Source: Oscillospiraceae bacterium (GTDB lineage Bacteria; Bacillota; Clostridia; Oscillospirales; Oscillospiraceae). From it: DNA of 64,000 nucleotides. Under the pieces are notes generated by a model. The model searched no databases, was not told the origin of the DNA, and was given only the letters and a program-made list of their open reading frames with translations. The translations under genes were made by a program, and so were the position numbers. This document shows positions 26,437 to 44,552 of the stretch, in pieces. Position 1 is the stretch's first letter; the number at the start of each line of letters is the position of its first letter. The stretch spans positions 1 through 64,000 of the forward strand of contig WRDH01000005.1 in NCBI GenBank assembly GCA_009783555.1, written 5' to 3'.

Positions 26437-29400
26437 ATGAAGAGGATTCTTGTCGAAAAAAAAGAGCCGTTCCGGCTGGAAGAAAGAGACATGATGCTCG
26501 AAATACGAGACGCACTTAACATACCCCGTGTCACCGGGGTTCGTATTTTTAACGGATATGATATAGAGGGACAGGAAAAGACAGAGGGACAGGTACACTG
26601 TCTTGTGTTCGCCCAAGACAGTGTACCTGTCCCCCTGTCTTCAATCTTTTCGGAAGCAGGCCGGGACATCGTCTACGAAGATGTCCCGGACACTACCGGA
26701 GCCGCTTGCGTTTTCGCTGTAGCTGCAGCTATCGACCAGTATGACCAACGAGAAGACTATGCGAATCAATTACTGCGTATAGTGGAGTCAAACTCCGAGC
26801 CGAATGTCAGAGTATTCAAAGTCATAGCATTTTATGGAGATTTATCAAGCTCCGACATAGATAAAATAAAATCATATTACATCAACCCTTTGGAAACACG
26901 GGAGATACCACTGACAGCCACAAAGCCAAGAGTTTACACGGACGCTGAAACTGTTGAAGTAATAAAAGGGTTTTCAAACGCTGATGATGATTTGTTGAAA
27001 ATGCTTGCCGGGAAATACGGTATAGCAATGGCGATTGATAATTTAAAGCTCTGCAGGGAGTACTTCGCAAAAGAACAAAAAGACCCTACAGTTACCGAAA
27101 TGAAAGTGCTTGACACTTATTGGTCAGACCACTGCAGACACAGCACATTTATGACTGTTATAGACGAGGTGACAATAAACGAAAACAAGTACACGGAAGG
27201 ACTCAAGCGTGCACAAGAATTATATGAGCATGCAAAGACATACGTGTATGGAGATACGGATAGACCGCTTTGTCTGATGGACATTGCGACAATGTCCATG
27301 AAAAAACTAAAAAAATGCGGTGAGCTTGACGATATGGAGAAATCCGATGAGGTCAATGCGTGCAGTATAGAAGTGACCGTGCCGGTTGACGGCAAACCGA
27401 CCGATATGATTGTAATGTTCAAAAACGAAACCCACAATCATCCTACAGAAATGGAACCGTTCGGTGGCGCGTCTACATGCCTCGGCGGCGCGATACGCGA
27501 CCCGCTATCGGGGCGTGCGCACGCGTTTGGAGCAATCAGATTAACCGGAAGCGGAGACCCAAGAGAACCGGTGGAAGATACGTTGCCCGGTAAATTACCG
27601 CAGCGGAAAATAACGCAAACGGCAGCAGATGGCTACAGCTCGTACGGAAACGGGATAGGTCTTGCTTTGGGGCAGCTTATAGAGGTTTATGATCCGGGGT
27701 TTAAAGCAAAACGTATGGAGTGCGGCGCAATCGTAGCCGCCGCAAAAAAAGCGGAGATTTTCAGAGGAAAACCGCATCCGGGTGATGTAGTTGTTTTGGT
27801 TGGCGGAAATACGGGACGTGACGGTTGCGGCGGAGCAACAGGCTCGTCAAAAGAACATGATGATGAGTCTTTGGAAAAAGGCGGTGCAGAGGTACAAAAA
27901 GGCAACCCCGTAATTGAGCGTAACATAGTCAGGCTGTTTCGCAAGCCTTTTGTTTCCAAAATGATAAAAACATGCAATGACTTTGGAGCAGGCGGTGTTT
28001 GCGTAGCTGTAGGGGAACTTGCTGACGGACTGAAAATAGATTTAGACAAGGTTCCGGTAAAATATCCCGGGCTGGATGGTACAGAGCTTGCGATATCCGA
28101 ATCGCAAGAGCGGATGGCAGTTGTATTAGATGCAGTAAATCTTGAGTTATTTTTAGCGGAAGCTAAGAAAGAAAATCTAAACGCAGTGAAAATCGCCGAT
28201 GTGACAGATACGGGTCGAGTATTAATGACATGGCGAGGCGATGTTATACTGGATATGAGCAGCGACTTTCTAAACTCCGGCGGAGTGCGGCAGAGTACGA
28301 GGGTTGTTGTGGCTGCTCCTTGTATAGTAAATCACCCGTCGTCTGTAGACGACACCCTCTTTTCAAAGAGGGCTAATGACCTCAAACAAACATGGCTCAG
28401 TAACCTATCCGATTTAAACGTATGCTCAAAAAAAGGCATCGCAAACCGTTTTGATTTCACCGCGGGCGGCGGGACGGTGTTTTCGCCCTATGGCGGTGTT
28501 TACCAAAAGACTCCCGAGCAGGGGCTTGCCATGCGTCTGCCGCTTTTAGAGGGAGAGACGGATTTTGGTACACTTATGACTGTTGGGCACAACCCGTCAC
28601 TTGGCTATAGCAGTCCGTTTCATGCTGCAATGTATGCTGTCATAGAATCGGTGATGAAAATAACCGCAATGGGCGGTGACTACCGGAAGGTGCGGTTAAG
28701 TTTTCAAGAATATTTTGAAAGATTAGCAACCGGCGAAAGTTGGGGAAAACCATATGCTGCTCTTATGGGAGCGTTTCTGGCACAAGATGAGCTTGGTATT
28801 CCCGCAATAGGCGGCAAGGATAGCATGTCAGGAACATTTAACGATATAAATGTTCCCCCTTCGCTGATTTCATTTGCGGTAACGATAGCAGACACAACAA
28901 AGCTTATTTCACGCGCATTTAAAAGCTCCGGGCATAATGTATATTTATTGAAAACACCCGTTGATGATGGAGGTATGCCCAACTTCAAGGTGCTCCGTCA
29001 AAATATGAGTTCTGTTCTTACTCTCACTGAATATGGATGTGTCAGAGCCGCAAGTGTTGTCGGTACGGGCGGTATTGCAGCAACAATCAGCGAAATGGCA
29101 TTTGGAAACAGAATCGGCTTCGCATTTGAATCGGACTTCAAAGACGATTTATTTGCTCCGCAATACACGACCATGATACTTGAACTTGATGTAGTTCCGA
29201 AAGATCATAAGGGACTCCGTGATGAATTTATCTTACTGGGTAAAACAACAGACAAAAAAAGTATAGAGATAGATGGTGTAGCTATCCCGCTCAGTGAAGC
29301 AGAACAGGCTTGGGAGGGAGCACTTGACAACGTGTTCCCGTCAATCAACTCCCCACCTGTGATAACTCGCTCCTCATATCCTGTCAACACTAATACATCA

Positions 29401-30354
29401 CCATCTGCCATAATCAAAACTTCATCACCTGTTTCAAGCGACACCTCACCAGCTTCTCAAAATCAAACAGCCACACCTAACCCCTCATCGTTAAAAGAGC
29501 CATTAGTACCTGCTGCACAAACAAATAAACAACCAAAGGTTCTAATCCCGATATTCCCGGGTTCAACCGGTGAGTATGAACTGGAAAAACAGTTTCGTAT
29601 AGCTTGTGCCGAAGTTAATACTGTCCTATTCAGAACGCTAACATCAAGTGACATAGAGGACAGTTATTCCGAACTAACCGAAGCGGTAAATAATGCAAAC
29701 ATACTGGCAATACCCTCAGGAATGTCAGCGGGAGCAGAGCCTGACGGAAGCAGCAAGCTTATTGCGTTGATACTTCGTCATCCGAATGTCAAAGAAGCAG
29801 TTAATAAGCTAATAAGCGAGCGCAAGGGTCTGGTTCTCGGCACAGGAGAAGGCTTCAAAGCATTGTTGAAAACAGGACTGATACAAACAGGGCAAATCCA
29901 AGATGTCGAGAATGGGGATATACTCTTAACAAAGCACCCCTCCAACAACTACTACTGCACACTAAGAACAGTTATGATAGAAGAAAACACAACATCACCA
30001 TGGCTTAAAAACATGGCAGGTGAATTGGAAACAGTGCCTATATCAGGAAAAGACATCGTGGTACATATGTCCGAAGAACTCTACAAAGAGTACATGGTAA
30101 AAGGACAAATAACATCGCAATATATAAGTGAACAAGGGGACGATTCATCCGTTTCAATCAACGATGGGATAGGAAACAAAAAATGCAACTCTTCGCACAC
30201 AATTGAAGCAATGACAAGCGAAAACGGCTTAGTTCTCGGAAGAGCCGGACTCGTTGAAAACTTTACTAAAGGCCTCTACACAAATGTATTCGATGCAAAA
30301 GAAAGCCGCATATTTAGCAATGCAGTAAGTTACATAACACAGATGCAACTGTAA
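26437..30354 (+). CDS. purL: phosphoribosylformylglycinamidine synthase, single chain, amidotransferase site degenerate
   Basis: 1305 residues, the long fused PurL of Clostridia. It makes FGAM from FGAR in purine synthesis. The synthetase part is well conserved (SDHCRHSTF near 230, FKNETHNHPTEMEPFGGAST near 330, GGKDSMSGTF, CNDFGAGGVCVAVGELADG). Three oddities: residues ~48-69 (EKTEGQVHCLVFAQ...) are encoded by an in-frame 64-nt palindromic repeat; residues ~969-1031 are a Ser/Thr/Pro-rich linker; and in the C-terminal glutaminase-like domain the nucleophile motif GICNG is GTGEG (Cys replaced by Gly1137) and GHSER is GLVEN (His replaced by Leu1272). It should therefore use free ammonia or a separate glutaminase. 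GAGG precedes the ATG. First gene of the purine cluster. Confidence 0.95.
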   Translation: MKRILVEKKEPFRLEERDMMLEIRDALNIPRVTGVRIFNGYDIEGQEKTEGQVHCLVFAQDSVPVPLSSIFSEAGRDIVYEDVPDTTGAACVFAVAAAIDQYDQREDYANQLLRIVESNSEPNVRVFKVIAFYGDLSSSDIDKIKSYYINPLETREIPLTATKPRVYTDAETVEVIKGFSNADDDLLKMLAGKYGIAMAIDNLKLCREYFAKEQKDPTVTEMKVLDTYWSDHCRHSTFMTVIDEVTINENKYTEGLKRAQELYEHAKTYVYGDTDRPLCLMDIATMSMKKLKKCGELDDMEKSDEVNACSIEVTVPVDGKPTDMIVMFKNETHNHPTEMEPFGGASTCLGGAIRDPLSGRAHAFGAIRLTGSGDPREPVEDTLPGKLPQRKITQTAADGYSSYGNGIGLALGQLIEVYDPGFKAKRMECGAIVAAAKKAEIFRGKPHPGDVVVLVGGNTGRDGCGGATGSSKEHDDESLEKGGAEVQKGNPVIERNIVRLFRKPFVSKMIKTCNDFGAGGVCVAVGELADGLKIDLDKVPVKYPGLDGTELAISESQERMAVVLDAVNLELFLAEAKKENLNAVKIADVTDTGRVLMTWRGDVILDMSSDFLNSGGVRQSTRVVVAAPCIVNHPSSVDDTLFSKRANDLKQTWLSNLSDLNVCSKKGIANRFDFTAGGGTVFSPYGGVYQKTPEQGLAMRLPLLEGETDFGTLMTVGHNPSLGYSSPFHAAMYAVIESVMKITAMGGDYRKVRLSFQEYFERLATGESWGKPYAALMGAFLAQDELGIPAIGGKDSMSGTFNDINVPPSLISFAVTIADTTKLISRAFKSSGHNVYLLKTPVDDGGMPNFKVLRQNMSSVLTLTEYGCVRAASVVGTGGIAATISEMAFGNRIGFAFESDFKDDLFAPQYTTMILELDVVPKDHKGLRDEFILLGKTTDKKSIEIDGVAIPLSEAEQAWEGALDNVFPSINSPPVITRSSYPVNTNTSPSAIIKTSSPVSSDTSPASQNQTATPNPSSLKEPLVPAAQTNKQPKVLIPIFPGSTGEYELEKQFRIACAEVNTVLFRTLTSSDIEDSYSELTEAVNNANILAIPSGMSAGAEPDGSSKLIALILRHPNVKEAVNKLISERKGLVLGTGEGFKALLKTGLIQTGQIQDVENGDILLTKHPSNNYYCTLRTVMIEENTTSPWLKNMAGELETVPISGKDIVVHMSEELYKEYMVKGQITSQYISEQGDDSSVSINDGIGNKKCNSSHTIEAMTSENGLVLGRAGLVENFTKGLYTNVFDAKESRIFSNAVSYITQMQL
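26578..26641. repeat. palindromic repeat inside the purL reading frame
   Basis: Two 28-nt arms (26578-26605 and 26614-26641) are inverted copies with one mismatch, separated by 8 nt. The core is GGGACAGGTACACTGTC, a variant of the GGGACGGTTC family. It is in frame and adds about 21 residues in the N-terminal domain of PurL. Confidence 0.9.
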
Positions 30355-30483: not shown

Positions 30484-30996
30484 ATGAAAGTTGGAATAAT
30501 TATGGGAAGCGATTCCGATCTGCCAATAATGAAAGAAGCAGCGGAATTCCTCGATGAAATGGGTATTTCAAACGAAGTCACCATAGTCTCGGCACATAGG
30601 ACTCCAAAGAGAATGTTTGAATATGCGCAGACGGCAAAAGAAAGAGGATTGTCACTCATAATCGCGGGAGCGGGCGGCAGTGCACACTTGCCGGGAATGG
30701 TAGCTTCAATCACTACATTGCCCGTCATCGGAGTGCCAATAAAAACAACAGCACTCGACGGCGCTGACTCTCTATACTCAATAGTCCAAATGCCACCCGG
30801 CATACCCGTAGCAACCGTTGCGATTAACGGAGCAAAAAACGCAGGAATACTGGCTGCTTCAATATTAGCGATAAATGACGCTGAAATCGCCGAGAAATTA
30901 AAAGCATATAAAGATAATCTGAATGAATTGATTACATGGAAAGCAAAAACCCTTGAAAACATCGGGTACACAGAATATTTAACGAAAGCTAAGTAA
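30484..30996 (+). CDS. purE: N5-carboxyaminoimidazole ribonucleotide mutase (class I PurE)
   Basis: 170 residues, the usual length. [10 protein letters not shown] near the N-terminus binds the nucleotide phosphate, SAHRTPKRM carries the catalytic His of class I enzymes, and [14 protein letters not shown] is the active-site loop. It converts N5-CAIR, made by PurK, to CAIR. AGGGGG lies before the ATG. It is followed after six bases by purK, its pathway partner, which confirms the class I assignment. Confidence 0.97.
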
Positions 30997-31002
30997 CAAA
31001 AA

Positions 31003-32157
31003 ATGGAAATAGCAAAAAAAAGAATCGGAATAGTGGGCGGCGGACAGCTTGGCAAAATGATGATACTTGAAGCCAAACGGCTTGGGTTATATATTACTGT
31101 GCTTGACCCGGCTGCTGATTGCCCGTCATCAAGTATTTGCGATAAATTAATTGTCGCAAATCTCAATGACCTGAGCGGTTATACAGAGCTATCCAAGCAT
31201 GCCGATGTGATTACATATGAATGGGAAAATATCAGTGTCCCGGCACTGGAAAAGCTGGAAAAGGGAGGACATATAATCTACCCTTCCGTATCTTCATTAA
31301 GAACAATTCAAAACAAGTACGTTCAAAATGCAGCTCTGAAAAAAGCCGGAATACCGGTTCCAAAATTCGCTTTGGTCACAAACACGGAGGAAATACGGGA
31401 ATATGGAAAACCCGAGAACTTCGGTTACCCGCTCATGTTGAAAACAACATCAGGCGGGTATGACGGTAAAGGAGTTGCTCCGGTTAAAACCGAAGATGAC
31501 GTTGACGATGCTTTTCATCAGCTTGGCAGTGGAATAAAAGAACTAATGGTTGAAGAGTTCGTCGATTTCCAAAAAGAAATATCCGTCATAGCCTGCAGAG
31601 GCATAAAAGGAGAAAAAGCAGTATATCCGGTCGCGGAGAACACGCATACAAACACCATATTGGACACAACCGTTGTCCCTGCGGATATAAGCGAAGAAGC
31701 AAGTAATAAAGCAAAAGAAATAGCGGATAAGGTAATGTCGGTCTTTGAAGGTGTCGGGACGTTTTGCACAGAAATGTTTTTGGCAAAAGACGGCGAAATC
31801 TACGTAAACGAAGTTGCACCCCGCCCTCACAACTCAGGGCACTACACAATTGAGGGTTGTTTTGCGAACCAGTTTGAAAATCATATAAGAGCAATACTCG
31901 GGCTTCCGTTTGGAGATACGGGATTAATATGTCCGGCTGTTATGGTCAACTTACTTGGCGAAAGCGATGGAAAAGCAAAGCTGTTAGGTCTTGAAGAAGC
32001 GTATAATGACCCGAATGTTCAAGTACATATATATGGCAAGAGCGAATCAAAGGTCGGCAGAAAAATGGGGCATTATACAGTTGTCGGAGAATCGGCAAAG
32101 GATACAATAAAGCGGGCTTTGGAATTGAAAAAAATAGTTCGCATTATTGGGGAATAA
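31003..32157 (+). CDS. purK: N5-carboxyaminoimidazole ribonucleotide synthase
   Basis: 384 residues of the ATP-grasp superfamily. The N-terminal IGIVGGGQLGKMMILEAKRLG is the PurK nucleotide-fold signature; the ATP-grasp core runs about residues 100-300 (KTTSGGYDGKGV, VEEFVDFQKEISVI, EVAPRPHNSGHYTIEGC). It makes N5-CAIR from AIR, ATP and bicarbonate and feeds PurE. The gap to purE is six bases with no clear separate ribosome binding site, suggesting coupled translation. Confidence 0.96.
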   Translation: MEIAKKRIGIVGGGQLGKMMILEAKRLGLYITVLDPAADCPSSSICDKLIVANLNDLSGYTELSKHADVITYEWENISVPALEKLEKGGHIIYPSVSSLRTIQNKYVQNAALKKAGIPVPKFALVTNTEEIREYGKPENFGYPLMLKTTSGGYDGKGVAPVKTEDDVDDAFHQLGSGIKELMVEEFVDFQKEISVIACRGIKGEKAVYPVAENTHTNTILDTTVVPADISEEASNKAKEIADKVMSVFEGVGTFCTEMFLAKDGEIYVNEVAPRPHNSGHYTIEGCFANQFENHIRAILGLPFGDTGLICPAVMVNLLGESDGKAKLLGLEEAYNDPNVQVHIYGKSESKVGRKMGHYTVVGESAKDTIKRALELKKIVRIIGE

Positions 32158-32325: not shown

Positions 32326-33717
32326 GTGGATAAATTTAGAGAAGAATGCGGACTTGTCGCAGCAGTTCTTAAAGGTAATGTTGAGGCTGCGCAGACAGTA
32401 TATTTCGGGCTTAACGGATTGCAGCACAGAGGTCAGCAAAGTGCCGGACTTGCGGTTTGCAATGATGGTATTATGAGCTGTTACAAAGATACAGGGCTTG
32501 TAACTGAAGTGCTTGATGAAAAAATACTAACCATCTTAAAAGGAGATATGGCACTCGGACACGTCAAGTACGGTCCGGGAACAGAAAGCTTTCAAATCCA
32601 TGCTCAACCTTTGCTTATAAACTACAGACACGGCTCACTTGCAACCGCATTTAACGGAGCATTAGTAAACGGCAATCAGTTGAGGGAACGCATGGAAAAT
32701 GACGGAGCAATCTTCTCCACCACAACGGATTGTGAAGTCGTTGCTGCACTAATTGCCCGGTACGATAAAAACGATATAACCGAAGCGGTTAAAGCAACAA
32801 TGGAGGAAATCCAAGGCGGTTACGCATTATGTATTATGACAAAAGACCGGATTATAGGCGCACGCGACCCTCGGGGGATACGCCCGCTGTCAATAGGGAA
32901 ACTAAGCAGCGGCTACGCACTTGCCTCGGAAAGCTGTGCGTTTGACATGATGGAAGGCGAATTCATAAGAGACGTAAAACCCGGGGAAATAATAATAATT
33001 GAAAACGAGAACATCACATCTGTAAGTACCGGGATAGAAAACGAAAAGGCGATGTGCTCATTTGAGTATGTATACTTTGCAAGACCGGATTCGACCATAG
33101 ACGGAAAAAACGTTTACGATGTCAGAGAGCTGGCAGGACGAGCACTGGCAGCCGAACACCCCGTAGACGCGGATGTAATTATCGGTGTACCCGACTCCGG
33201 AACACCCGCCGCCATCGGATATTCATTAGAAAGCGGCATCCCGTACAGACCGGGTCTGATAAAAAATAAATACATAGGGAGAATTTTCATACAACCGACT
33301 CAGACACAAAGAGAAATCGGCGTAAGAATCAAACTCAACCCGATTGAAATGCTTGTAAAAGATAAATCGGTTGTACTGGTCGATGACAGCATCGTAAGAG
33401 GCACAACAATGCGTAAAATCATAGCAACCTTGCGTCATGTAGGAGCAAAAGAAGTACACCTGCGCATAAGCTCACCGCCAATAAGAAACTGCTGCTACTT
33501 CGGAGTAGACACCCCCGACATAAAAGATTTCATAGCAACCTCCCGCCCCGTAGAAGAAATAAGACAAGAACTCGACGCAGACAGCCTCGGCTTCATAAGC
33601 ATAGAAGGCTTGCTGAAATCGCTGGGAGGAACAGGCTATTGCACAGGATGTTTTAGCGGGGAGTATCCGATGGATATAGGCATTAATTATCTACCCACAT
33701 TTCGCATTGCCCGATAA
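32326..33717 (+). CDS. purF: amidophosphoribosyltransferase
   Basis: 463 residues; commits PRPP to purine synthesis using glutamine. It starts with GTG behind GGAGG. A seven-residue propeptide (MDKFREE) precedes Cys8, the N-terminal nucleophile. The glutaminase domain has GLQHRGQQSAG and the phosphoribosyltransferase domain the PRPP loop SVVLVDDSIVRGTT. Cysteines in MCSFEYVYFARPDS, RNCCYFGVD and GYCTGCFSGEYP match the [4Fe-4S]-type enzyme of Bacillus, which is oxygen-sensitive. The coding end overlaps the convergent hsdR gene by 35 bases. The next purine gene (purM) lies 7.1 kb further on, beyond the restriction island. Confidence 0.97.
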   Translation: MDKFREECGLVAAVLKGNVEAAQTVYFGLNGLQHRGQQSAGLAVCNDGIMSCYKDTGLVTEVLDEKILTILKGDMALGHVKYGPGTESFQIHAQPLLINYRHGSLATAFNGALVNGNQLRERMENDGAIFSTTTDCEVVAALIARYDKNDITEAVKATMEEIQGGYALCIMTKDRIIGARDPRGIRPLSIGKLSSGYALASESCAFDMMEGEFIRDVKPGEIIIIENENITSVSTGIENEKAMCSFEYVYFARPDSTIDGKNVYDVRELAGRALAAEHPVDADVIIGVPDSGTPAAIGYSLESGIPYRPGLIKNKYIGRIFIQPTQTQREIGVRIKLNPIEMLVKDKSVVLVDDSIVRGTTMRKIIATLRHVGAKEVHLRISSPPIRNCCYFGVDTPDIKDFIATSRPVEEIRQELDADSLGFISIEGLLKSLGGTGYCTGCFSGEYPMDIGINYLPTFRIAR

Positions 33718-36700
33718 CTGTTTCAAGTGCGTACTCCACACCTTCCGGCGGATATTTGTATTTTTTCAGAAGCCTTTTTACCATACGTCGCATTCCTGCT
33801 CTTGCAGCTTCTTTCTTTTGCCAGTCGATTGTACGGCTCTTACGAAGTTGATCCGTGAGTTCTCTTGTCATATCGATTAGTTCTTCATTTTGATAAAAGT
33901 CCTTTACTGCTGCAGGACGAGTTAATGCATCATAAAATGCTAACTCTTCATCCGATAAACCCAATGAAGAACCTTCGGCTTGAGCGGTTGCCATTTCCTC
34001 TGCCATTTCCATAAGCTCAGCGATAACTTCCTCGTTAGTGAGCATTCCATTAATGTACTCCCGCATTGCTCTTGCTAATCTCTCAGAAAATTTCTCAGAC
34101 TTTACAAGATTTGTTTTTCGATAAATTGATACTTGCTCTGCTAATAGCTTTTTAAGTATCTCTACTGCAAGATTCCGCTCCTCCATTTTTGCTATTTCAT
34201 CAAGGAACTTAGGGTCGAATAAAGAAAACTCGATATCAATATCAGAAAACAGGTTTATAACACCCTTGCTTTGAATTGCACCCTTGAGCAATCCGTTGAT
34301 ATGCTCATTTATATCTTTTAGTGAGAATTTTTTATCAGAACCTGATATACGAGTTAATAATGTTCGCACAGCATCAAAATATGCGGCTTCATAGCGTTGC
34401 TTTTGATCCAGCAATGATCGGCACAACGACAATGCTTGACGCAGCAGCATTGCTTCCTTTATAAATGCATCTTTTAGGTTTTGCACGTCTGTTCTGTCAT
34501 TCACATAATCAGCGAAGTTCACTATTGCCGCATCTGCTGCCATCGAAAGTCCGGGCTCTGTGCTGTGCAATATTGTTCCGGGTTCAATACTGTAAATATT
34601 GCTTGATTTTACTGCAGATAAGAAGTTTACGCCTCCGCTTATTGCTTTGGCACGAGCTAAATCTGTAGCGTTTTCACTCATAAACGCCGTGTAATTATAC
34701 CCATGCATAAGGCTCCGACATACCTCCAGCTTCTCAATAAATTTTGGGAGAGCTGTTTTTGCAATATCGGTATCTCCATAATTACGTTTATCTCGATTGG
34801 TATAATCGCTCATTGCTTGTTTCAATGCCGGAGCGATACCTACATAATCAACTACTAAACCGCCTACCTTATCTTTGTAAACACGGTTCACGCGAGCGAT
34901 TGCTTGCATTAGGTTATGACCTGCCATAGGTTTGTATATATACATAGTAGCTAGAGATGGCACATCAAAACCGGTTAGCCACATATCTACTACAATAGCG
35001 ATCTTCATTGAATCGTCGTTGCTTTTAAACTTTTTTGCCAGCTCATCACGTCTGTTTTTATTACCGATGATATCATGCCAATCTTCCGGGTCATTATTAT
35101 CAGATGTCATAACAACGCCGATTTTCTCAGCCCAATGTGGTCGCATTTCCATTAGTTTTCGATATATTTTAATTCCTATAGGGCGAGAGTATGCTACAAT
35201 CATTGCTTTTCCGGTTTGTTCATACTGCCGGTTTTCTTCATAATGTTTCACTATATCGTTACATAACGCAGAAATCGTCTGCTCTGCTCCGAGAATTGAT
35301 TCCATTTTTCCAAGTTCTTTTTTGCTTTTTTCAATTGCGTGCGACTCAGCGTTTTGTGCGAGTATATCATATTCGGCATCAATCAACTTCAAAATATCTT
35401 CATCGAGCTTAAGATGAATGACACGGCTTTCATAAAACACAGGACGTGTTGCACCGTCTTCTACTGCTTGTGTCATATCATATATATCAATGTAATTTCC
35501 AAAAACCTCTATTGTAGAACGATCTTTTGATGAAATCGGTGTGCCGGTAAATCCTATGTAGGTAGCATTCGGTAGACTGTCACGAATTACTCGTGCAGTT
35601 CCGAGTGTTACACGCCCGGTATCCGCATCAACCTTTTCTTCAAGTCCATACTGTCCTCTATGAGCTTCATCAGCAATTACAATAATGTTCCTACGCTCCG
35701 AAAGCGGCTCCAAGCATTCTTCAAATTTCTGCATTGTGCTGAATATGATTCCATATGACTCACGGCCTTCAAGAAGCTCTTTTAAATTGATTCTGCTTTC
35801 AGCTTGTTTTGGTGTTTGGCGAAGATAATCTGAACATAACAGAAATTGCTCATAAAGTTGATTATCTAAATCATTTCTATCCGTGAGCACAAGAATTGTA
35901 GGGGATTGCAATACTTCTTGTAGCATTTTGGCAAAGAACACCATAGAAAGTGATTTACCACTGCCTTGCGTATGCCAGAACACGCCACCTTTACCATCAG
36001 TCTGGGTAGCCTTTACAATCATATTAACGGCTTTCTTTACTGCAAAGTATTGATGGTAAGCTCCAAGTATTTTTATATCACCGGAGTAGCAAATGAAGTT
36101 CTTAAGAAGGTCGATTAATCTTTTCTTTTCGAATATCCCAATGAAAAATGTGTCAAACCCTGCAAATTGAGTGTTTTCATAACTGCCATCTGTGGTCTTC
36201 CATGCCATAAAACGATCTTCTCCGGCTGTTATTGTACCTGCTTTGGTATGAGCTTGATCACTTGTGACCAAAAATGCATTATAAATAAATAATGACGGAA
36301 TTTCATGCATGTAGTTACGGAGTTGAAGGTATGCTTCACCTGCATCAGTTGACTCTCGAGATGGCGATTTCAACTCTGCCACTGCTATTGGTATTCCGTT
36401 CAAGAACACTATCAGGTCCGGCCTTTTTATACTATGTTCCGATATCGACCATTGGTTCGCGATGATGAAAGTGTTCATATCTATATTTTGGTAATCCACC
36501 AAGTATACTAATGTAGATTTCTGTTCTCCTCCAAAGAAGTAATTCACCGAAACGCCATTTTGCAGATAATCTGTAAAAATCTTGTTTTTCGTAATCGGGT
36601 CGCCGCTGCTAAAATCACACATCTTACTGATAGCTTCCTTGATTGCCACTTCCGGGAGAAGCGGATTTATCCGTTTCAATGCAGGTTGAAGCTCAGCGCG

Positions 36701-36811
36701 AAATAAAGGGTCGGCATAATCACGCTCGACATCAGGGCCGTATGCATGAGAATAGCCAAGCTTGTCGCGGAATATTTCAATAATAGCGTTTTCATATTGT
36801 GTTTCGTTCAT
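33683..36811 (-). CDS. hsdR: type I restriction enzyme, R (motor/nuclease) subunit
   Basis: 1042 residues, full length for HsdR. The N-terminal PD-(D/E)xK nuclease has RPDLIVFLNGIPIAVAELKSP. The SF2 translocase follows: Walker A FWHTQGSGKSLSM near residue 285, DEAH box VIADEAHRGQYG, motif III FTGTPI, motif VI LMQAIARVNRV. The C-terminal ~300 residues are the helical part that binds the methylase. It cuts unmodified DNA after translocation. The ATG at 36811 has AAGGAG nine bases upstream. It lies downstream of, and separated from, hsdM/hsdS by the HepT/MntA pair. It is intact, so restriction depends on an assembled HsdS. Confidence 0.96.
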   Translation of the reverse strand: MNETQYENAIIEIFRDKLGYSHAYGPDVERDYADPLFRAELQPALKRINPLLPEVAIKEAISKMCDFSSGDPITKNKIFTDYLQNGVSVNYFFGGEQKSTLVYLVDYQNIDMNTFIIANQWSISEHSIKRPDLIVFLNGIPIAVAELKSPSRESTDAGEAYLQLRNYMHEIPSLFIYNAFLVTSDQAHTKAGTITAGEDRFMAWKTTDGSYENTQFAGFDTFFIGIFEKKRLIDLLKNFICYSGDIKILGAYHQYFAVKKAVNMIVKATQTDGKGGVFWHTQGSGKSLSMVFFAKMLQEVLQSPTILVLTDRNDLDNQLYEQFLLCSDYLRQTPKQAESRINLKELLEGRESYGIIFSTMQKFEECLEPLSERRNIIVIADEAHRGQYGLEEKVDADTGRVTLGTARVIRDSLPNATYIGFTGTPISSKDRSTIEVFGNYIDIYDMTQAVEDGATRPVFYESRVIHLKLDEDILKLIDAEYDILAQNAESHAIEKSKKELGKMESILGAEQTISALCNDIVKHYEENRQYEQTGKAMIVAYSRPIGIKIYRKLMEMRPHWAEKIGVVMTSDNNDPEDWHDIIGNKNRRDELAKKFKSNDDSMKIAIVVDMWLTGFDVPSLATMYIYKPMAGHNLMQAIARVNRVYKDKVGGLVVDYVGIAPALKQAMSDYTNRDKRNYGDTDIAKTALPKFIEKLEVCRSLMHGYNYTAFMSENATDLARAKAISGGVNFLSAVKSSNIYSIEPGTILHSTEPGLSMAADAAIVNFADYVNDRTDVQNLKDAFIKEAMLLRQALSLCRSLLDQKQRYEAAYFDAVRTLLTRISGSDKKFSLKDINEHINGLLKGAIQSKGVINLFSDIDIEFSLFDPKFLDEIAKMEERNLAVEILKKLLAEQVSIYRKTNLVKSEKFSERLARAMREYINGMLTNEEVIAELMEMAEEMATAQAEGSSLGLSDEELAFYDALTRPAAVKDFYQNEELIDMTRELTDQLRKSRTIDWQKKEAARAGMRRMVKRLLKKYKYPPEGVEYALETVIGQCEMWVDN

Positions 36812-36834
36812 TTTAAAGAACTCCTTCAATGTGT

Positions 36835-36846
36835 TAAATCATCATT
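36835..36846. repeat. third, partial copy of the hsdS inversion repeat
   Basis: TAAATCATCATT matches the first 12 bases of the 15-bp inversion repeat at 37873-37887, in the same orientation. It sits 24 nt before the hsdR start, where the 3' end of an ordinary hsdS gene would be expected (hsdS would end AAATGA within this repeat). Confidence 0.6.
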
Positions 36847-36889
36847 GTACGAATGAATGAAAATTTATCTTTACGTTTATATAGATTTT

Positions 36890-37120
36890 GAGTATAATGT
36901 GTTTAATCCAAGTTTTCTTGGAGGTGGAGTGCTTGCACTTGGTAGCGGCTTGCTTGGCAGGCCGTTTTACTACGTAAAAAACGCCCACTACTGAGTAGAC
37001 GCTTCTTGTCGGATTTATGCATTTGACGGGCGTACCGTTCTCCCGCATCTCTCGGGTTTCCCCTGTCATTACCATCGGCGTGTGGTTTGTACGAAATCTA
37101 CCACCTCAAATGCTTGCCCT
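36890..37120 (-). ncRNA. candidate structured noncoding RNA
   Basis: Minus-strand transcript predicted from a promoter at 37127-37154 (TTTGCA, 16-bp spacer, TATAAT). The ends pair as GAGGTGG (37107-37101) with CCACCTC (36927-36921). Internally GGGGAAACCC, CCCGAGAGATGCGGG, and ACGCCC (37033-37028) with GGGCGT (36986-36981) form further stems, with CTACT/AGTAG inside. A final CCAAG-AAAA-CTTGG hairpin (36921-36908) may end it. A 77-codon frame crosses it but has no ribosome binding site and a composition unlike protein. I cannot name the family; raiA-type RNA or a transposon guide RNA should be tested. It follows hepT on the same strand. Confidence 0.5.
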
Positions 37121-37126
37121 ACAAGA

Positions 37127-37154
37127 ATTATACTATTTTTCGTTTCACTGCAAA
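37127..37154 (-). promoter_or_regulatory. promoter of the candidate RNA
   Basis: Perfect -10 TATAAT (37132-37127, minus strand) with TTTGCA (37154-37149) 16 bp upstream. No start codon with a ribosome binding site follows, which points to an RNA gene. Confidence 0.65.
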
Positions 37155-37184
37155 GAATTTGTTAATAAATCTTTGAAAATAAAA

Positions 37185-37517
37185 TTAGATGGTTAGCTCT
37201 TTCTTTAATTCAATGATACTTACCTTGACCGTATCCCATACTCTTTCCATATTAACAGCCTCGTATCTGTGTGCAGCTACATTTCGCATTGCTTGGACTT
37301 TTTTCCACGGAATATTTTTATTTAAGGATATAAACTCATCCGTATAACTCTTTGATAGTTCACCTATGTTAATCAGTGTCATAACAACGGCTTTTTGCGT
37401 TTTTGGGTCTGTATAGAAATCCGCTTCAGACATATTAGCTGTGAACAAGTCTATTTCGTTAATCTCTGACAGAATTTTCTTTGTAATAATATCATTCCTT
37501 TTACTTATCTCGTCCAT
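37185..37517 (-). CDS. hepT: HEPN toxin of HepT/MntA toxin-antitoxin system
   Basis: 110 residues of the HepT (DUF86) HEPN family. The defining RNase motif Rx4HxY is present in MRNVAAHRYEAV, including the Tyr that MntA-type partners AMPylate to silence the toxin. The rest is helical with the usual GELSKSYTDEF segment. It cleaves RNA when unmodified. It overlaps the antitoxin gene upstream by 17 bases, giving coupled translation. The pair lies between hsdR and the split hsdS, flanked by copies of the hsdS inversion repeat, so it appears to have been inserted there. Confidence 0.93.
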   Translation of the reverse strand: MDEISKRNDIITKKILSEINEIDLFTANMSEADFYTDPKTQKAVVMTLINIGELSKSYTDEFISLNKNIPWKKVQAMRNVAAHRYEAVNMERVWDTVKVSIIELKKELTI

Positions 37518-37800
37518 ATAAATGCACCACCTTATTAATTGTCATATACTCAGATGCAGTTTTTGATATTGGTGATTCCAGAATATCTACGTTCACTTTT
37601 AGCAAATCTGATAAATCTTGTTGAAAGCCACAAAAATCAAGTAGGGTAATAGGTCTTTTTCCAAACTCAACAAGCACATCAACATCGCTGTTCTGCTTAG
37701 CAGTTCCTTCTGCGTATGACCCAAATAAATGTACTTGATGGATAGGATACATTGGAGCAGTTTTACTCACGGCCTCTTTTATCTCTGTGATTGTAAGCAT
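37501..37800 (-). CDS. mntA: MntA-type nucleotidyltransferase antitoxin
   Basis: 99 residues of the minimal nucleotidyltransferase family. The catalytic motif is HLFGSYAEGTAKQNSDVDVLVEF (GS followed by DxD), with a third acidic residue in VDILESPIS. MntA proteins transfer AMP to a Tyr of HepT and so block its RNase. GAGGTG precedes the ATG. The order antitoxin-toxin with a short overlap is standard for the family. The pair may guard the neighbouring restriction system or be maintained as a selfish module. Confidence 0.92.
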   Translation of the reverse strand: MLTITEIKEAVSKTAPMYPIHQVHLFGSYAEGTAKQNSDVDVLVEFGKRPITLLDFCGFQQDLSDLLKVNVDILESPISKTASEYMTINKVVHLYGRDK

Positions 37801-37872
37801 AATACACCTCGATTTCTTACATCAATAGTCCTATAAAGTTAATATACATTACAGATAGTATAAGTTCAACAG

Positions 37873-38457
37873 TAAATCATCATTTAGAGAAGATAGCGCA
37901 GGCGATTTTTGTTGAGTGTTGTAGCGTGGGTGAAAATGCCGTACTATCTGACATTTTAACTGTTTGTTATGGCAAAGACCATAAACGGCTCGGTCATGGT
38001 GAAATACCCTGCTACGGTTCGGGTGGCATTATGCGTTATGTCGATAAAGCTATTTACAACGGCGAATCCGTCTTGATTCCTCGTAAAGGCTCACTAAACA
38101 ACGTGATTTTCATTAATGAGCCATTTTGGACGGTGGACACAATGTTCTATACTCAAATGACACACCATAATGTCGCAAAATTTGTGTACTTTACTGTACG
38201 TGACCTCGACTTGGCAGGAATGAATGTCGGTTCTGCTGTTCCAAGTATGACAACCGCTGTTCTCAATGCTTTGGAAATCGTGCTTCCGAGCGATGATGCC
38301 CTTGCAAGTTTCGAGAAAAGCGTAAGCCCGATGTTTTTGCAAATGCAAGCTAACAAGGCAGAATCTGCCCACCTAGCCGCCTTGCGAGATATGCTACTCC
38401 CGAGGCTTATGTCCGGCGAGCAGTCTATCGCCAACTTCGTTGCTAAATGATGATTTA
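37873..38457. other. invertible DNA segment of hsdS
   Basis: Bounded by perfect 15-bp inverted repeats, TAAATCATCATTTAG (37873-37887) and its complement (38443-38457). Inside lies the second half of hsdS on the plus strand. The repeat encodes NHHL in the hsdS frame. After inversion, the minus-strand frame reads KINHHLEKIAQAIFVE and continues into the second target-recognition domain, ending at the stop contained in the other repeat. This is what a site-specific invertase needs for on/off switching of specificity. No invertase gene is visible in the window. Confidence 0.88.
37926..38450 (+). CDS. hsdS: HsdS C-terminal half (inverted, presently silent cassette)
   Basis: 174 codons from the GTG at 37926, but the frame is open upstream through the repeat at 37873, reading NHHLEKIAQAIFVECCSVGENAVL. 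It contains the second target-recognition domain (CYGKDHKRLGHGEIPCYGSGGIMRYVDKAIYNGES) and the HsdS C-terminal helix with the typical LRDMLLPRLMSGE ending. EKIAQAIF is the conserved start of the segment after the central helices. There is no good ribosome binding site or promoter before it, so it is likely not translated in this orientation. Its stop codon lies inside the right inversion repeat. It belongs to the gene on the other strand at 38153-39010. Confidence 0.85.
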   Translation: MGENAVLSDILTVCYGKDHKRLGHGEIPCYGSGGIMRYVDKAIYNGESVLIPRKGSLNNVIFINEPFWTVDTMFYTQMTHHNVAKFVYFTVRDLDLAGMNVGSAVPSMTTAVLNALEIVLPSDDALASFEKSVSPMFLQMQANKAESAHLAALRDMLLPRLMSGEQSIANFVAK

Positions 38458-39010
38458 TCTTTGTATTTAACTCAATTCGTGCGTCGAGTGCCGTTAAAAT
38501 GGATGATATTCTTTGTTGTTCTTCTAGATCAGGTACTCTTATGTCATAATTAGAAAAAGACGTTTTGTTTACGATTGGGATTGCTGTTGATGTTTTACTT
38601 ATATAGTTTAATTTTTTTCCTAATATCATCATTGCATAATAAACAAAATCTGCATCAAACTCATCAAATGGAATTATAGAATTAATTTGTTGATTAGTAA
38701 CGGTTTCTTCTGTCGTTATAACAACTTTGCCTAAGTCTGAACCAATACAGCTTACACATATTGATCTCTGTGGTAATAAACATTTTTTTACCTCAGCAAG
38801 ACCTTGTTCGGTTAAATTTTTTGCTGTTTGTTCAACGTATTTTACATTCATATCATCAGAAGGCGTGAGGAATGGTATTGATCCACCATAGTTTTCAGTA
38901 ATCGCTGTTTTTGGTGTTTTTCCAGTTACTATTCGTCCTAATTCTTCCACACAAACTTTTCGCCATTCAGACCTCAAACCCAATCGCCCCCAGTCTTTTG
39001 CGAATCTCAT
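38153..39010 (-). CDS. hsdS: HsdS N-terminal half fused to an antisense tail
   Basis: About 285 codons. The real HsdS part (39010 down to 38457) holds the first target-recognition domain (WRKVCVEELGRIVTGKTPKTA start, SIPFLTPSDDMN, NKTSFSNYDIRVPDLEEQQRI) and the central conserved helices ILTALDARIELNTKINHHL. After the repeat the frame enters the inverted cassette and reads ~95 meaningless antisense codons before stopping at 38153. The product may be a half-subunit with one recognition domain, which could dimerise and give an altered specificity, or be inactive. It overlaps hsdM by about 40 bases; the exact start (TTG 39016, ATG 39010 or a later TTG/GTG) is uncertain. Confidence 0.85.
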   Translation of the reverse strand: MRFAKDWGRLGLRSEWRKVCVEELGRIVTGKTPKTAITENYGGSIPFLTPSDDMNVKYVEQTAKNLTEQGLAEVKKCLLPQRSICVSCIGSDLGKVVITTEETVTNQQINSIIPFDEFDADFVYYAMMILGKKLNYISKTSTAIPIVNKTSFSNYDIRVPDLEEQQRISSILTALDARIELNTKINHHLATKLAIDCSPDISLGSSISRKAARWADSALLACICKNIGLTLFSKLARASSLGSTISKALRTAVVILGTAEPTFIPAKSRSRTVKYTNFATLWCVI

Positions 39011-40484
39011 CCTCAAGCTCGTGGGAGTGCTTAAACATTTCCGATAACTCGCTCGTCAATCGTGTCATTTTTTCTTCGAAGGGTTCGCCGTCATCTTCTT
39101 GTTCTTCGATACCAACATAGCGTCCGGGTGTGAGTATATAGTCATGTTTTGCTATTTCATTTGTAGAGACGACAGCACAAAATCCATTTGTATCATCAAG
39201 TGTACCTTCTTCGAAAGCAACGAATGTATCTGATATTTTAGCCATGTCTTCTGTTGTCATTTCACGGTTTTTTCGTGATATCATTGTTCCCATCTTGCGA
39301 GCGTCAATAAATAAAGTTTTACCTTTCTGTTTTTTATTACGGTTTATAAACCACAATGAGACAGGTATTCCTGTTGTATAAAATAGCTGCGTTGGCATTG
39401 CGATAATACCTTCGACAAGGTCATCTTCCACGATTTTTCTTCTAATGTCTCCTTCACCGCCACTTTGCGAAGATAGTGACCCGTTAGCAAGCACTAATCC
39501 TATTTTCCCGTTTGGTGATAAATGATGAATCATATGCTGCATCCATGCAAAGTTTGCATTGCCTGCCGGAGGAAGACCATATTTCCAACGTACATCATTT
39601 GCAAGTTTGTCTGCGCCCCAATCGGAAAGGTTAAATGGGGGATTTGCCATTATATAATCTGCCCTCAGTGTAGAGTGACAATCGCTAAAGAATGTATCAG
39701 CGTTATATTTTCCAAGATCAGCCCATATTCCATGAATAGCTAAATTCATTTTTGCCATTTTCCATGTCGTTGGGTTTGAATCTTGTCCGTAAACAGCTAT
39801 ATCATTAATATTGCCTTGATGATGCGCAATGAATTTTGCAGATTGCACAAACATACCACCGGAGCCGCAACATGGATCATAAACTCTCCCGCTGTAAGGT
39901 TTGAGAACTTCGACAAGAGTTTGGACAACACAAGATGGAGTATAAAACTCGCCTGCTCGTTTTCCTTCTTGTTCCGCAAACATAGCAAGACAGTACTCAT
40001 AAGTTCTGCCGAGTAAGTCTTTGCTATCGCCATGCTCTGCCATTTTTATATTGGTAAACATGGTAACAACTTCACCGAGTCTGCGTTTATCAAGTTCAGG
40101 TCGTGCGAAAGTCTTTGGTAATATATCTTTAAGCTGCTTGTTCTCTCTTTCGATAGCCCGCATAGCGTCATCTATCATTGTACCGATTTCTGGTGTGTGT
40201 GCAACATCGGCTATTTTACTCCATCGTGCTTCTATTGGTACAAAAAATACATGCTCTGCTGCATACTCATCTCTATCTTCCTCAAAACCCTCACCTTCTG
40301 CTATAAGCTGATTATAACGTTCATCAAATTTGTCTGATATGTATTTGAGGAATATGAGACCGAGGATTACGTGCTTATATTCAGAGGCATCTATATTGCC
40401 GCGCAGTATATCTGCTGCTTTCCATATCTGCTGTTCAAAGCCTATTGTTGCTGTTGATTTTCCTGTGTTCTTCGATGCTGACAT
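38967..40484 (-). CDS. hsdM: type I restriction-modification DNA methyltransferase (M subunit)
   Basis: 505 residues. N-terminal HsdM helical domain (FEQQIWKAADILRGNIDASEYKHVILGLIFLKYISDKFDERY), then the N6-adenine methylase with AdoMet motif VYDPCCGSGGMFVQ near residue 212 and catalytic NPPF in ADYIMANPPFNLSDW. The C-terminal ~60 residues form the HsdS-binding tail. With HsdS it methylates the recognition site and directs HsdR. GGAG lies five bases before the ATG. First gene of the restriction unit; hsdS overlaps its end. Confidence 0.96.
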   Translation of the reverse strand: MSASKNTGKSTATIGFEQQIWKAADILRGNIDASEYKHVILGLIFLKYISDKFDERYNQLIAEGEGFEEDRDEYAAEHVFFVPIEARWSKIADVAHTPEIGTMIDDAMRAIERENKQLKDILPKTFARPELDKRRLGEVVTMFTNIKMAEHGDSKDLLGRTYEYCLAMFAEQEGKRAGEFYTPSCVVQTLVEVLKPYSGRVYDPCCGSGGMFVQSAKFIAHHQGNINDIAVYGQDSNPTTWKMAKMNLAIHGIWADLGKYNADTFFSDCHSTLRADYIMANPPFNLSDWGADKLANDVRWKYGLPPAGNANFAWMQHMIHHLSPNGKIGLVLANGSLSSQSGGEGDIRRKIVEDDLVEGIIAMPTQLFYTTGIPVSLWFINRNKKQKGKTLFIDARKMGTMISRKNREMTTEDMAKISDTFVAFEEGTLDDTNGFCAVVSTNEIAKHDYILTPGRYVGIEEQEDDGEPFEEKMTRLTSELSEMFKHSHELEDEIRKRLGAIGFEV

Positions 40485-40849: not shown

Positions 40850-41887
40850 ATGGAAAAATGGACATATGAAAAAGCGGGTGTCAGTGTTGAGGCGGGGTAT
40901 GATGCGGTCAAGCGTATGAAAGCGCATGCAGCCAGAACAAGAATACCCGGTGTCCTTGAGGGGCTTGGAAGCTTCGGCGGCTTGTTCGAATTACCAAAAG
41001 GCTATGACGAACCCGTTCTGGTTTCGGGTACTGATAGCGTCGGCTCAAAGGTTCAAATTGCATTTGAAATGGACATCCATAACACCATAGGCATTGACTG
41101 TGTCGCGATGTGCGTCAACGACATAATCTGTATGGGAGCAAAACCGTTGTTTTTCCTCGACTACATAGGCATAGGCGGGCTTGACCCCGAAAAAGCGGAG
41201 CTTATTGTACAAGGTGTCAGTGAAGGATGTATACAATCGGGCTGCGCGCTCATAGGTGGTGAAACTTGCGAAATGCCGGATATTTACAAGCCGGGTGAAT
41301 ATGACCTGGTTGGATTTGCGGTCGGAGTTGCAGAAAAAAGTAATATAGTCACAGGCAAGGAAATCGCTGAAGGTGACACAATTATAGGTGTTGCATCTTC
41401 AGGAATGCACAGCAACGGCTTCACACTTGTCAGAAAATTAGCAGAGCACAACGCAATATCATACGACCAACACATCGACGAATTGGGAGCAACACTTGGC
41501 AAAACCCTTCTAACTCCAACAAAGCTATACGCAAAAATGGTTGAAAAGCTGATGTCAAAGCATGAAATTAAAGGAATGGCAAACATAACCGGGGGCGGTT
41601 GGGTTGAAAACATACCGCGTATGCTTGCTGCAGACGATTTGAAAATACGCGCATCTAAAGAAAATGCACCGGTGCCGCAGATATTCGGACTCATCCAAAA
41701 ATGGGGCAACGTTGATGAAATAGAAATGTACTCAACATTTAACATGGGTATCGGATTTACACTGTGTGTTGAGACCGATGACGCAGAAGCAGTGGTGGAA
41801 ACAATTAAAAGCACGGGAGAGCAAGCGTACAGTATAGGTATTGTTGAAAAGCGTGCAAAGGGAGAACGAGACATTGTCATTGTTTAA
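40850..41887 (+). CDS. purM: phosphoribosylformylglycinamidine cyclo-ligase
   Basis: 345 residues, standard length; closes FGAM to AIR using ATP. Motifs: YEKAGVSVEAGYDAVKRM at the start, LVSGTDSVGSKVQIAF (ATP/substrate loop), DCVAMCVNDI, CALIGGETCEMPDIY and MANITGGGWVENIPRML. Homologous in fold to the PurL synthetase half. AAAGG lies before the ATG. It starts the second block of the purine cluster, beyond the restriction island. The following purN start overlaps its end by 14 bases. Confidence 0.97.
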   Translation: MEKWTYEKAGVSVEAGYDAVKRMKAHAARTRIPGVLEGLGSFGGLFELPKGYDEPVLVSGTDSVGSKVQIAFEMDIHNTIGIDCVAMCVNDIICMGAKPLFFLDYIGIGGLDPEKAELIVQGVSEGCIQSGCALIGGETCEMPDIYKPGEYDLVGFAVGVAEKSNIVTGKEIAEGDTIIGVASSGMHSNGFTLVRKLAEHNAISYDQHIDELGATLGKTLLTPTKLYAKMVEKLMSKHEIKGMANITGGGWVENIPRMLAADDLKIRASKENAPVPQIFGLIQKWGNVDEIEMYSTFNMGIGFTLCVETDDAEAVVETIKSTGEQAYSIGIVEKRAKGERDIVIV

Positions 41888-42587
41888 TCTGGCGGTACTG
41901 ATATCCGGCTCAGGCTCAAACCTGCAAGCAGTCATTGACGCAACCGAAAACGGCACAATACCGAGTGCAAAAGTCGCACTGGTCGTATCAAGTCGTGAAA
42001 AAGTCTTCGGACTGGAGCGTGCCGAAAAACACGGCATTACAAACATGGTAATAGACAGGCTCGATACGGAAAAGCTGATGGATATGCTAAAAGCACATAA
42101 CATCGACGGGATAATTTTAGCAGGGTATCTCACTGTTTTAGCACCCGATGTAATAACGGCTTACAATGGAAAAATAATCAATATTCACCCCGCATTACTT
42201 CCGATGTTCGGAGGCAAGGGTTTTTACGGAATCAAAGTTCATCAAGCGGTATTGGCATCAGGAGTTAAGTACACGGGAGCAACCGCGCATATTGTTGATT
42301 GCGGCGTAGATACAGGATCTGCACTTGTACGCGGAGTAATCCCTGTCTCACCGGATGACACTGCAGAAAACCTTCAAAAAAGAGTCCTTGAAGTAGAACA
42401 CAAAGTGCTTGTCAAAGCGGTTAAGGCATTGGTTGAGGGAAATCTTGATGAATTGATAAAAAGCCCTCTTACGCTAGTAAACAAAGATGATAAAGAAGGC
42501 ATACTCGAGTATGCAAGAGAGCTAATGGAATTAAGCAATGCGTTGAACGACGGAAAATTCGTCATTGCGGGTAATGCGTGTTCTTAG
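41874..42587 (+). CDS. purN: phosphoribosylglycinamide formyltransferase
   Basis: About 237 residues; transfers formyl from 10-formyl-THF to GAR. Catalytic Asn/His/Asp features are in IINIHPALLPMFGG, TGATAHIVDCGVDTGSAL. The TTG at 41874 is chosen because AAAGGGAG (41857-41864) is nine bases upstream and the protein then begins just before LAVLISGSGSNLQ. It overlaps purM by 14 bases. PurN is usually about 190-210 residues; this one has ~40 extra C-terminal residues, the last ten encoded by a dispersed repeat (42561-42615) that also supplies the stop. Confidence 0.94.
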   Translation: MSLFNLAVLISGSGSNLQAVIDATENGTIPSAKVALVVSSREKVFGLERAEKHGITNMVIDRLDTEKLMDMLKAHNIDGIILAGYLTVLAPDVITAYNGKIINIHPALLPMFGGKGFYGIKVHQAVLASGVKYTGATAHIVDCGVDTGSALVRGVIPVSPDDTAENLQKRVLEVEHKVLVKAVKALVEGNLDELIKSPLTLVNKDDKEGILEYARELMELSNALNDGKFVIAGNACS

Positions 42588-42615
42588 TAGATTGCGGCTC
42601 TGAGGTTGCAATGAC
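42561..42615. repeat. GTCATTGCGG ... GCAATGAC repeat at the purN end
   Basis: GTCATTGC (42561-42568) pairs with GCAATGAC (42608-42615); an inner ATTGCGG copy is also present. It is related to the repeats at 11638 and 24899. It covers the purN stop codon and the leader of purD. Confidence 0.65.
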
Positions 42616-42634
42616 AGGAAGGGATGACCAAAAA

Positions 42635-43873
42635 ATGAAAATACTAATAATCGGCAGTGGCGGCAGAGAGCATGCCATAGGATGGAAGCTTAAACAAAAC
42701 CCAGATAACCTGTTATACTTTGCTCCGGGCAATGGGGGAACATCACAAATCGGAGAAAACATCAATATTAAGGTTGATGAAATCACAAAACTTGCCGACT
42801 TTGCGGAAAAGCAAGAAATAGAAATGACCGTTGTCGGACCGGAGCTGCCGCTGACATTAGGCGTCACAGATGAGTTTAACCGCCGCGGATTACGTATTTT
42901 CGGACCGGGAATAGAAGGAGCAAGGCTCGAAGGCAGCAAAGCATTCGCAAAAAAGTTCATGCAAAAATACGATATCCCTACGGCAAATTACGATGCTGTA
43001 ACATGCTTTGTTGACGGGATGAACATGCTTGCACACCACCGCTACCCCGTTGTTATTAAAGCTGACGGGCTTGCGGCCGGAAAAGGCGTAATCATTTGCA
43101 CCAATAAGTGGGAAGCTGAAGCCGCACTCAAAGATATGCTTGAAGCAAACACATTCGGCGAAGCAGGCAGTACAGTCATTATAGAGGAATTTCTCACAGG
43201 AAAAGAAGTGTCACTTATGTGCTTCACGGACGGGGAAACAATAATCCCGATGGAAACAGCAAGCGACTACAAGCGTGCTTTAGATAAAGACAGAGGTGCT
43301 AATACCGGAGGGATGGGAAGCATATCGCCGTCACCATATTACAGTGATGGACTCGGCAATGAAATCGCACAAAAAACACTTCAGGGATTAAAACAAGAAG
43401 GCTTTGACTATCGCGGAGTAATATATATCGGTTTGATATTGACACCCGACGGTCCAAAAATACTGGAGTACAACGCACGCTTTGGAGACCCGGAAACAGA
43501 AGCCCTTCTGCCCCGTCTCGAATCAGATTTAGCAGAGATTCTCAGCGCGACAGCAGATAAGCGTTTATCTGAATGCAAATTGCACTGGAACGACAAGAAA
43601 GCAGTGAGTGTGATCATAACCTCGGAAGGTTACCCCGGTACATATGAAACAGGTTATGAAATAGATATACCGGAAACAAAAAGCACTGTATTCCACGCCG
43701 GCACAACTACCGAAAACGAAAAAACAATCACAAGCGGAGGAAGAGTGTTGTCGATTACGGCGTTGGGTACAGACTTTGAAGAAGCAAGAAGAGTTGTTTA
43801 TGAGGATGCAGAAAAAATTAGGTTTGAAGGCAAAACGTACCGGACAGATATCGGATTGGTGCAAGGTGTATAG
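42635..43873 (+). CDS. purD: phosphoribosylamine-glycine ligase
   Basis: 412 residues of the ATP-grasp superfamily; joins phosphoribosylamine and glycine to give GAR. IIGSGGREHAIGWKL is the N-terminal signature; KADGLAAGKGVIICT, IEEFLTGKEVSLMCFTDGE, RGANTGGMGSISPSP and LEYNARFGDPETEALLPRL mark the ATP-grasp core and metal site. The ATG at 42635 directly starts the conserved domain, with AGGAAGGG upstream; a longer in-frame start at 42578 would translate repeat sequence. It is followed by purC one base after the stop. Confidence 0.96.
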   Translation: MKILIIGSGGREHAIGWKLKQNPDNLLYFAPGNGGTSQIGENINIKVDEITKLADFAEKQEIEMTVVGPELPLTLGVTDEFNRRGLRIFGPGIEGARLEGSKAFAKKFMQKYDIPTANYDAVTCFVDGMNMLAHHRYPVVIKADGLAAGKGVIICTNKWEAEAALKDMLEANTFGEAGSTVIIEEFLTGKEVSLMCFTDGETIIPMETASDYKRALDKDRGANTGGMGSISPSPYYSDGLGNEIAQKTLQGLKQEGFDYRGVIYIGLILTPDGPKILEYNARFGDPETEALLPRLESDLAEILSATADKRLSECKLHWNDKKAVSVIITSEGYPGTYETGYEIDIPETKSTVFHAGTTTENEKTITSGGRVLSITALGTDFEEARRVVYEDAEKIRFEGKTYRTDIGLVQGV

Positions 43874-43874
43874 T

Positions 43875-44552
43875 ATGATAAAAATATTCACCGGAAAAAC
43901 TAAAGACGTATTCCAACTGGAAGACGGAAATATAAAGCTGGTCTTCAAAGACGATATGACGGGAGCAGACGGGGTATTTGACCCGGGTGCGAACACTGTA
44001 GGGTTAACTGTTGAAGGTGCAGGACTGGCAGGACTCAACATGTCTGTGTTTTATTTCAAGCTGCTGGAAGAAAAAGACTACCCGACTCATTTCATATCGG
44101 CTGAAGAAAACATAATGACAGTCAAACAAGCAGCTCCGTTTACCGGAGGATTGGAAGTCATTTGCCGTTATAAAGCAATGGGCAGCTTCATTCGCAGGTA
44201 CGGCGGTCTCATTAAAGAAGGAGCCGCGCTCAATGCCGTTGTAGAAATGACATTAAAGGACGATGCCCGCGGCGATCCTTTGATTAATGAAGACGTACTT
44301 GTGGCAGTAGGTATATTAAAACCGGGTGAATATGAGAAAATAAAAACACTTACTCAAAAAATCTGCGAAGTCATAAAAAACGACATCGCAGAAAAAGGTA
44401 TGGAGTTATGCGACATAAAACTGGAATTCGGTAAGGACAAACACGGAAATATCATACTGATAGATGAAATATCGGGAGGAAACATGAGAGTCCTCGAAAA
44501 CGGAATCCCGGTGTCACCATTGGATTTATCAAAAAAACTGTCCGGATTTTAA
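43875..44552 (+). CDS. purC: phosphoribosylaminoimidazole-succinocarboxamide synthase
   Basis: About 225 residues; makes SAICAR from CAIR and aspartate. The N-terminal FTGKTKDVFQLEDGNIKLVFKDD matches the ATP-binding beta hairpin of PurC, and residues ~160-210 (MELCDIKLEFGKDKHGNIILIDEISGGNMR) match the catalytic end. The middle is divergent from the common bacterial form (GADGVFDPGANTVG replaces the usual acidic loop). It starts one base after the purD stop. It is the last purine gene here; purB, purH, purA and any purQ/purS are not in the window. Confidence 0.9.
   Translation: MIKIFTGKTKDVFQLEDGNIKLVFKDDMTGADGVFDPGANTVGLTVEGAGLAGLNMSVFYFKLLEEKDYPTHFISAEENIMTVKQAAPFTGGLEVICRYKAMGSFIRRYGGLIKEGAALNAVVEMTLKDDARGDPLINEDVLVAVGILKPGEYEKIKTLTQKICEVIKNDIAEKGMELCDIKLEFGKDKHGNIILIDEISGGNMRVLENGIPVSPLDLSKKLSGF

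Follow-up and report, generated by a model that had tools for sequence, protein, structure and literature searches.

The locus analysed here raises the question of where an FGAM synthetase (PurL) obtains its nitrogen when its own glutaminase domain lacks the catalytic cysteine and histidine. Textbooks describe amidotransferases such as PurL, GuaA and CarAB as coupled to a glutaminase. A survey recorded no glutaminase-less case for PurL (660 genomes), GuaA (730), PyrG (800) or CarAB (600) (PMC3376133), and open-licence papers yielded no description of a naturally occurring PurL whose glutaminase is dead. The purL of the window (the whole stretch of 64,000 nucleotides that was analysed, from an Oscillospiraceae bacterium) encodes a full-length match to the clostridial-type PurL equivalog TIGR01857, scoring 1368 bits against a curated cut-off of 1057 and spanning positions 1–1238 of 1239. 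It is surrounded by the intact purine genes E, K, F, M, N and D and by a purC-like gene (Table 1), and with such neighbours a dead enzyme would be odd.

Table 1. The purL gene, its parts and altered motifs, and the neighbouring purine genes, in positions of the window.
Feature	Positions	Strand	Evidence or detail
purL, clostridial-type FGAM synthetase, apparently inactive glutaminase domain, 1305 aa	26437..30354	+	TIGR01857
PurL N-terminal and synthetase part, conserved	26437..29331	+	WSDHCRH, ETHNHPT, GGKDSM in translation
PurL linker rich in Ser/Thr/Pro/Asn	29332..29529	+	Translation
Pseudo-glutaminase domain, GATase_5 fold, triad Cys and His lost	29530..30336	+	PF13507, 112.5 bits
Oxyanion-loop region IPSGMSAGAEPDGS (live PurLs: PGGFSGGDEPDGS), Asp lost	29710..29751	+	
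Nucleophile elbow LGTGEG, Gly1137 in place of catalytic Cys	29836..29853	+	Gly1137 codon 29845-29847
GLVEN, Leu1272 for catalytic His, Glu1274 kept, Asn1275 for conserved Arg	30247..30261	+	Leu1272 codon 30250-30252
purE	30484..30996	+	TIGR01162
purK	31003..32157	+	TIGR01161
purF, class II Cys kept, Arg73-equivalent replaced by Lys (HVKY)	32326..33717	+	TIGR01134
purM	40850..41887	+	TIGR00878
purN	41841..42587	+	TIGR00639
purD	42578..43873	+	TIGR00877
purC-like	43776..44552	+	TIGR00081, 119.7 bits, below the curated cut-off of 189.9

An earlier note, made from the DNA alone, had claimed that both catalytic residues are gone, that the nearby oxyanion loop is altered and that the synthetase half is conserved, and all three observations held, as did the reading frame and the positions of LGTGEG and GLVEN. 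In a profile of 50 related domains, Gly1137 and Leu1272 align with the motifs GxCNG and HPER of PurL and PurQ proteins of solved structure; Ala1100 stands for the Asp of the oxyanion loop. The catalytic Glu, two residues past the His, is retained in the window, with Asp in its place in two members of the clade; the next residue, an Arg that in PurL of Salmonella sits at the ammonia exit (PMC3815217), is replaced by Asn. Judged by these residues, the window PurL lacks the Cys and the His of a glutamine-hydrolysing FGAM synthetase (EC 6.3.5.3) and keeps the Glu. Five other species in the genus, 65–75% identical, carry all four altered motifs; together with the window they form a clade in which the catalytic-His column is Leu in 6/6 members and which shares a new elbow, G[TLF]GE[GA]F. 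Since the loss is common to six species, several of them represented by separately sampled MAGs, assembly or sequencing error can be discarded as its cause, its probability being practically nil. The shared elbow, as well as the constraint that persists in the domain (53–71% identity within the clade), would fit the use of another nucleophile or the gain of a new binding role, for example in metabolite sensing; this is nevertheless quite improbable, given that no Cys or His elsewhere in the domain is invariant in the six-member clade (Cys1174 and His1210 occur in 5/6); on the same ground a compensating pair was rejected.

The two parts of the protein have fared differently. Of the positions at which 34 live PurLs do not vary, the synthetase part keeps 171/194, in agreement with a conserved FGAM synthetase core, and the glutaminase part only 36/62. 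The GATase_5 domain is nonetheless full-length (residues 1032–1300) and is predicted still to fold as a PurL glutaminase, with an AlphaFold pLDDT of 88 and Foldseek matches to PurL structures at E about 1e-13. Relative to the synthetase part, the glutaminase part changes at 1.28 times the rate within the clade, whereas the median for 123 pairs of live PurLs is 0.93; the constraint on it, judging from this ratio and from the identity that remains, is relaxed, yet not free. The faster change could be taken as a sign that PurL is decaying in an organism that lives on purine salvage, but this is very improbable in view of the complete reading frame, the adjoining purine cluster and the retention of 88% of the synthetase invariants in all clade members. 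It is also at odds with the relative G009, where PurL is split, the stop codon of the synthetase overlapping the start codon (ATG) of the pseudo-glutaminase, so that the dead domain has been preserved as a gene of its own after fission; a GGGAGGGGG stretch lies upstream, and the named record of the species has the same sequence.

With its own domain disabled, PurL might be served by another glutaminase. A search of the window genome for purQ and purS found neither: the sole PF13507 match is the window purL itself and PF02700 has no match. On this search the organism does not appear to have a split PurL/PurQ/PurS system, in which purQ and purS are genes of their own, and rescue of PurL by these proteins was rejected. 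The class I glutaminase family PF00117 likewise has no match in this genome and is matched in 14/14 control genomes, which makes a class I glutaminase of this family less likely as a dedicated partner of PurL. A separate glutaminase, non-homologous or of class II or III, could still dock on PurL and supply ammonia from glutamine; class II enzymes such as PurF are present in the genome, and it has been suggested that in E. coli PurL serves the other purine enzymes as a scaffold (PMC10912719). This arrangement is unlikely, however, considering the loss of the conserved ammonia-exit Arg and the lack of PurQ, PurS and PF00117 in a search confined to these three, as distinct from other glutaminase families such as PF04960, PF07685 and PF01174.

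The same deficit extends to other amidotransferases of the window genome. Its GMP synthetase (GuaA) is a stand-alone synthetase of 335 aa that covers only positions 195–512 of the full-length model, with no glutamine amidotransferase (GATase) domain upstream or nearby; CarB is complete, with no CarA adjoining it, and the search for PyrG gave no match. This genome is 92% complete and in 79 contigs, so some of these absences could be gaps; the relative G002, 98% complete, gives the same picture. Of 19 genomes of the genus, 14 gave no PyrG, including several with a completeness of at least 96%. That synthetases such as GuaA and CarB are kept without a glutaminase speaks against simple auxotrophy, and amidotransferase synthetases are able to use ammonia in vitro (PMC3376133).

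We consider it very probable that the window PurL is an FGAM synthetase dependent on ammonia, its pseudo-glutaminase having a structural role, within a wider abandonment of class I glutaminases; an ammonia-using PurL would be the simplest reading of these sequences. The synthetase would be working and fed by free ammonia entering from the cytosol, while the C-terminal domain would retain the class I glutaminase fold with glutamine hydrolysis made impossible by the loss of the nucleophile, the general base and the oxyanion-loop residues, and would probably persist as a structural piece of PurL. The dead PurL glutaminase, together with the glutaminase parts dropped elsewhere, suggests that nucleotides in this clade are probably built from free ammonia rather than from glutamine. 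The earlier note had deduced that PurL depends on ammonia or on a separate glutaminase: the loss in relatives and the lack of PurQ, PurS and PF00117 matches agree with this deduction; the use of ammonia itself is what we infer. Its suggestion of a shift in purine nitrogen supply gains support and becomes wider, as GuaA and carbamoyl-phosphate synthetase are affected too.

CarA lacking the glutaminase nucleophile, and mostly also the His, occurs in many genomes and families of the order. In G007 and G012 only the N-terminal domain of CarA is left, the glutaminase domain being deleted (L143:8390-8797, L158:5092-5568). A dead PurL is associated with a dead, truncated or missing CarA, both by genome (Fisher p 0.019) and by event, counted by hand (Fisher p 0.015). 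Outside the genus it also goes together with a lower number of PF00117 genes (p 0.008). Within the genus the difference in PF00117 count is not significant (p 0.10), the loss of GuaA/PyrG-sized GATases shows no association with dead PurL outside it (p 0.71), and some genomes with a live PurL likewise have few PF00117 genes. The combination found in G013, a dead PurL with live CarA, GuaA and PyrG, indicates that loss in PurL does not require the other losses. On balance, it is rather probable that in a lineage of anaerobes from ammonia-rich guts the class I glutaminases of PurL, CarA and GuaA have been lost together and repeatedly, by inactivation or deletion, so that purines and carbamoyl phosphate are made from free ammonia, and the change in PurL would be one part of this lineage-wide process. 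The repeated, genome-wide loss is a stronger part of the finding than PurL alone. The nucleophile-less CarA loci are L097, L108, L109, L114, L204, L206-L210, L212, L214, L224, L225 and L229, and some genomes of the order carry both a live and a dead CarA copy; at L143, the CarB that adjoins the shortened CarA is fused to a DapF-like domain. L110 and L111 (neighbours L099 and L100) encode neighbouring PuuD-like proteins with the class I GATase fold and N-terminal extensions, one with GICRG and the other with Asn replacing the Cys.

Dead PurL is rare in the family and the order. A codon-pattern survey found a non-Cys elbow in at least 5/400 genomes of the family and at least 7/396 of the order, in sets that overlap; these counts are lower bounds because the DNA pattern missed G013, which has Met rather than Leu after the elbow. 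In a quick tree built from the synthetase parts of 53 PurLs, with support by SH-aLRT only, the dead state requires eight changes, seven of them forced by well-supported branches, and within the order the non-Cys elbow thus appears to have evolved some seven times or more. The other dead PurLs have mostly lost the Cys alone; the His is also lost in the window clade and in G014, which belongs to another PurL lineage of the genus. The same tree places three unrelated PurL lineages inside this one genus, which suggests that purL has been replaced or transferred within it.

In its entire architecture, synthetase motifs and gene context, the window protein is like the clostridial-type large PurL (TIGR01857); it differs in lacking the Cys, the His, the oxyanion-loop Asp and the ammonia-exit Arg, and would not be expected to hydrolyse glutamine. 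The known parallel is mammalian carbamoyl-phosphate synthetase 1 (CPS1), which takes free ammonia and whose glutaminase-like domain is established as inactive in the human enzyme (PMC4655335). The window PurL would be comparable to it and would work like it, without being a member, as in both an inactive class I glutaminase-like fold, here a predicted one, is retained on an intact amidotransferase synthetase; CPS1, however, is activated by N-acetylglutamate and detoxifies ammonia, whereas the present case concerns another enzyme, bacterial nucleotide synthesis and repeated loss. The single-domain, ammonia-using NAD synthetase NadE is likewise an amidotransferase synthetase that works without a glutaminase (PMC3376133), but its glutaminase-free form has been proposed as ancestral, while in the window PurL the glutaminase was once present and then inactivated. 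Archaeal PurF' without the N-terminal Cys is also a purine amidotransferase homologue missing its nucleophile, for which ammonia use has been suggested (PMC3261824), although its domain is of class II and it occurs in genomes that also have a normal PurF.

The cause may lie in the habitat, since these bacteria probably abandoned class I glutaminases because they inhabit ammonia-rich guts. The five clade genomes with names, from which alone the habitat is taken, are "Oscillospiraceae bacterium" gut MAGs, at least four of them from termites; four of the five carry sample codes of humus-feeding termites, Emb289 for Embiratermes neotenicus and Th196 for Termes hospes (PMC7024585), and the fifth is coded Pal332. 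Ammonia can reach 130 mM in the posterior hindgut, a value that PMC7886697 cites from Ji and Brune (2006) and that refers to soil-feeding termites, whereas the named hosts are humus feeders. If true, the joint loss would contradict the published picture of PurL, GuaA and CarA as always coupled to a glutaminase; the coupling would have been broken more than once, and since the genomes can be named and the enzymes expressed, it becomes testable when free ammonia can substitute for channelled ammonia and why the dead domain is retained. Annotation models still label such proteins as glutamine-hydrolysing, so the glutamine demand of these organisms is probably wrong in gut metabolic models.

The class II glutaminase of PurF in this clade may be impaired too, as the Arg73 equivalent is Lys (HVKYG) in 5/5 members examined; the catalytic Cys is kept in them, and glutamine use may therefore not be wholly abandoned. 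The PurF of the dead-PurL clade (the window gene; L032, L033, L035, L036) also reads FNG for HNG. Between purF and purM of the window, type I restriction-modification genes lie on the reverse strand (33683-40484), with an hsdM-like gene at 38967-40484 (-) and a likely hsdR, read by eye, at 33683-36829 (-).
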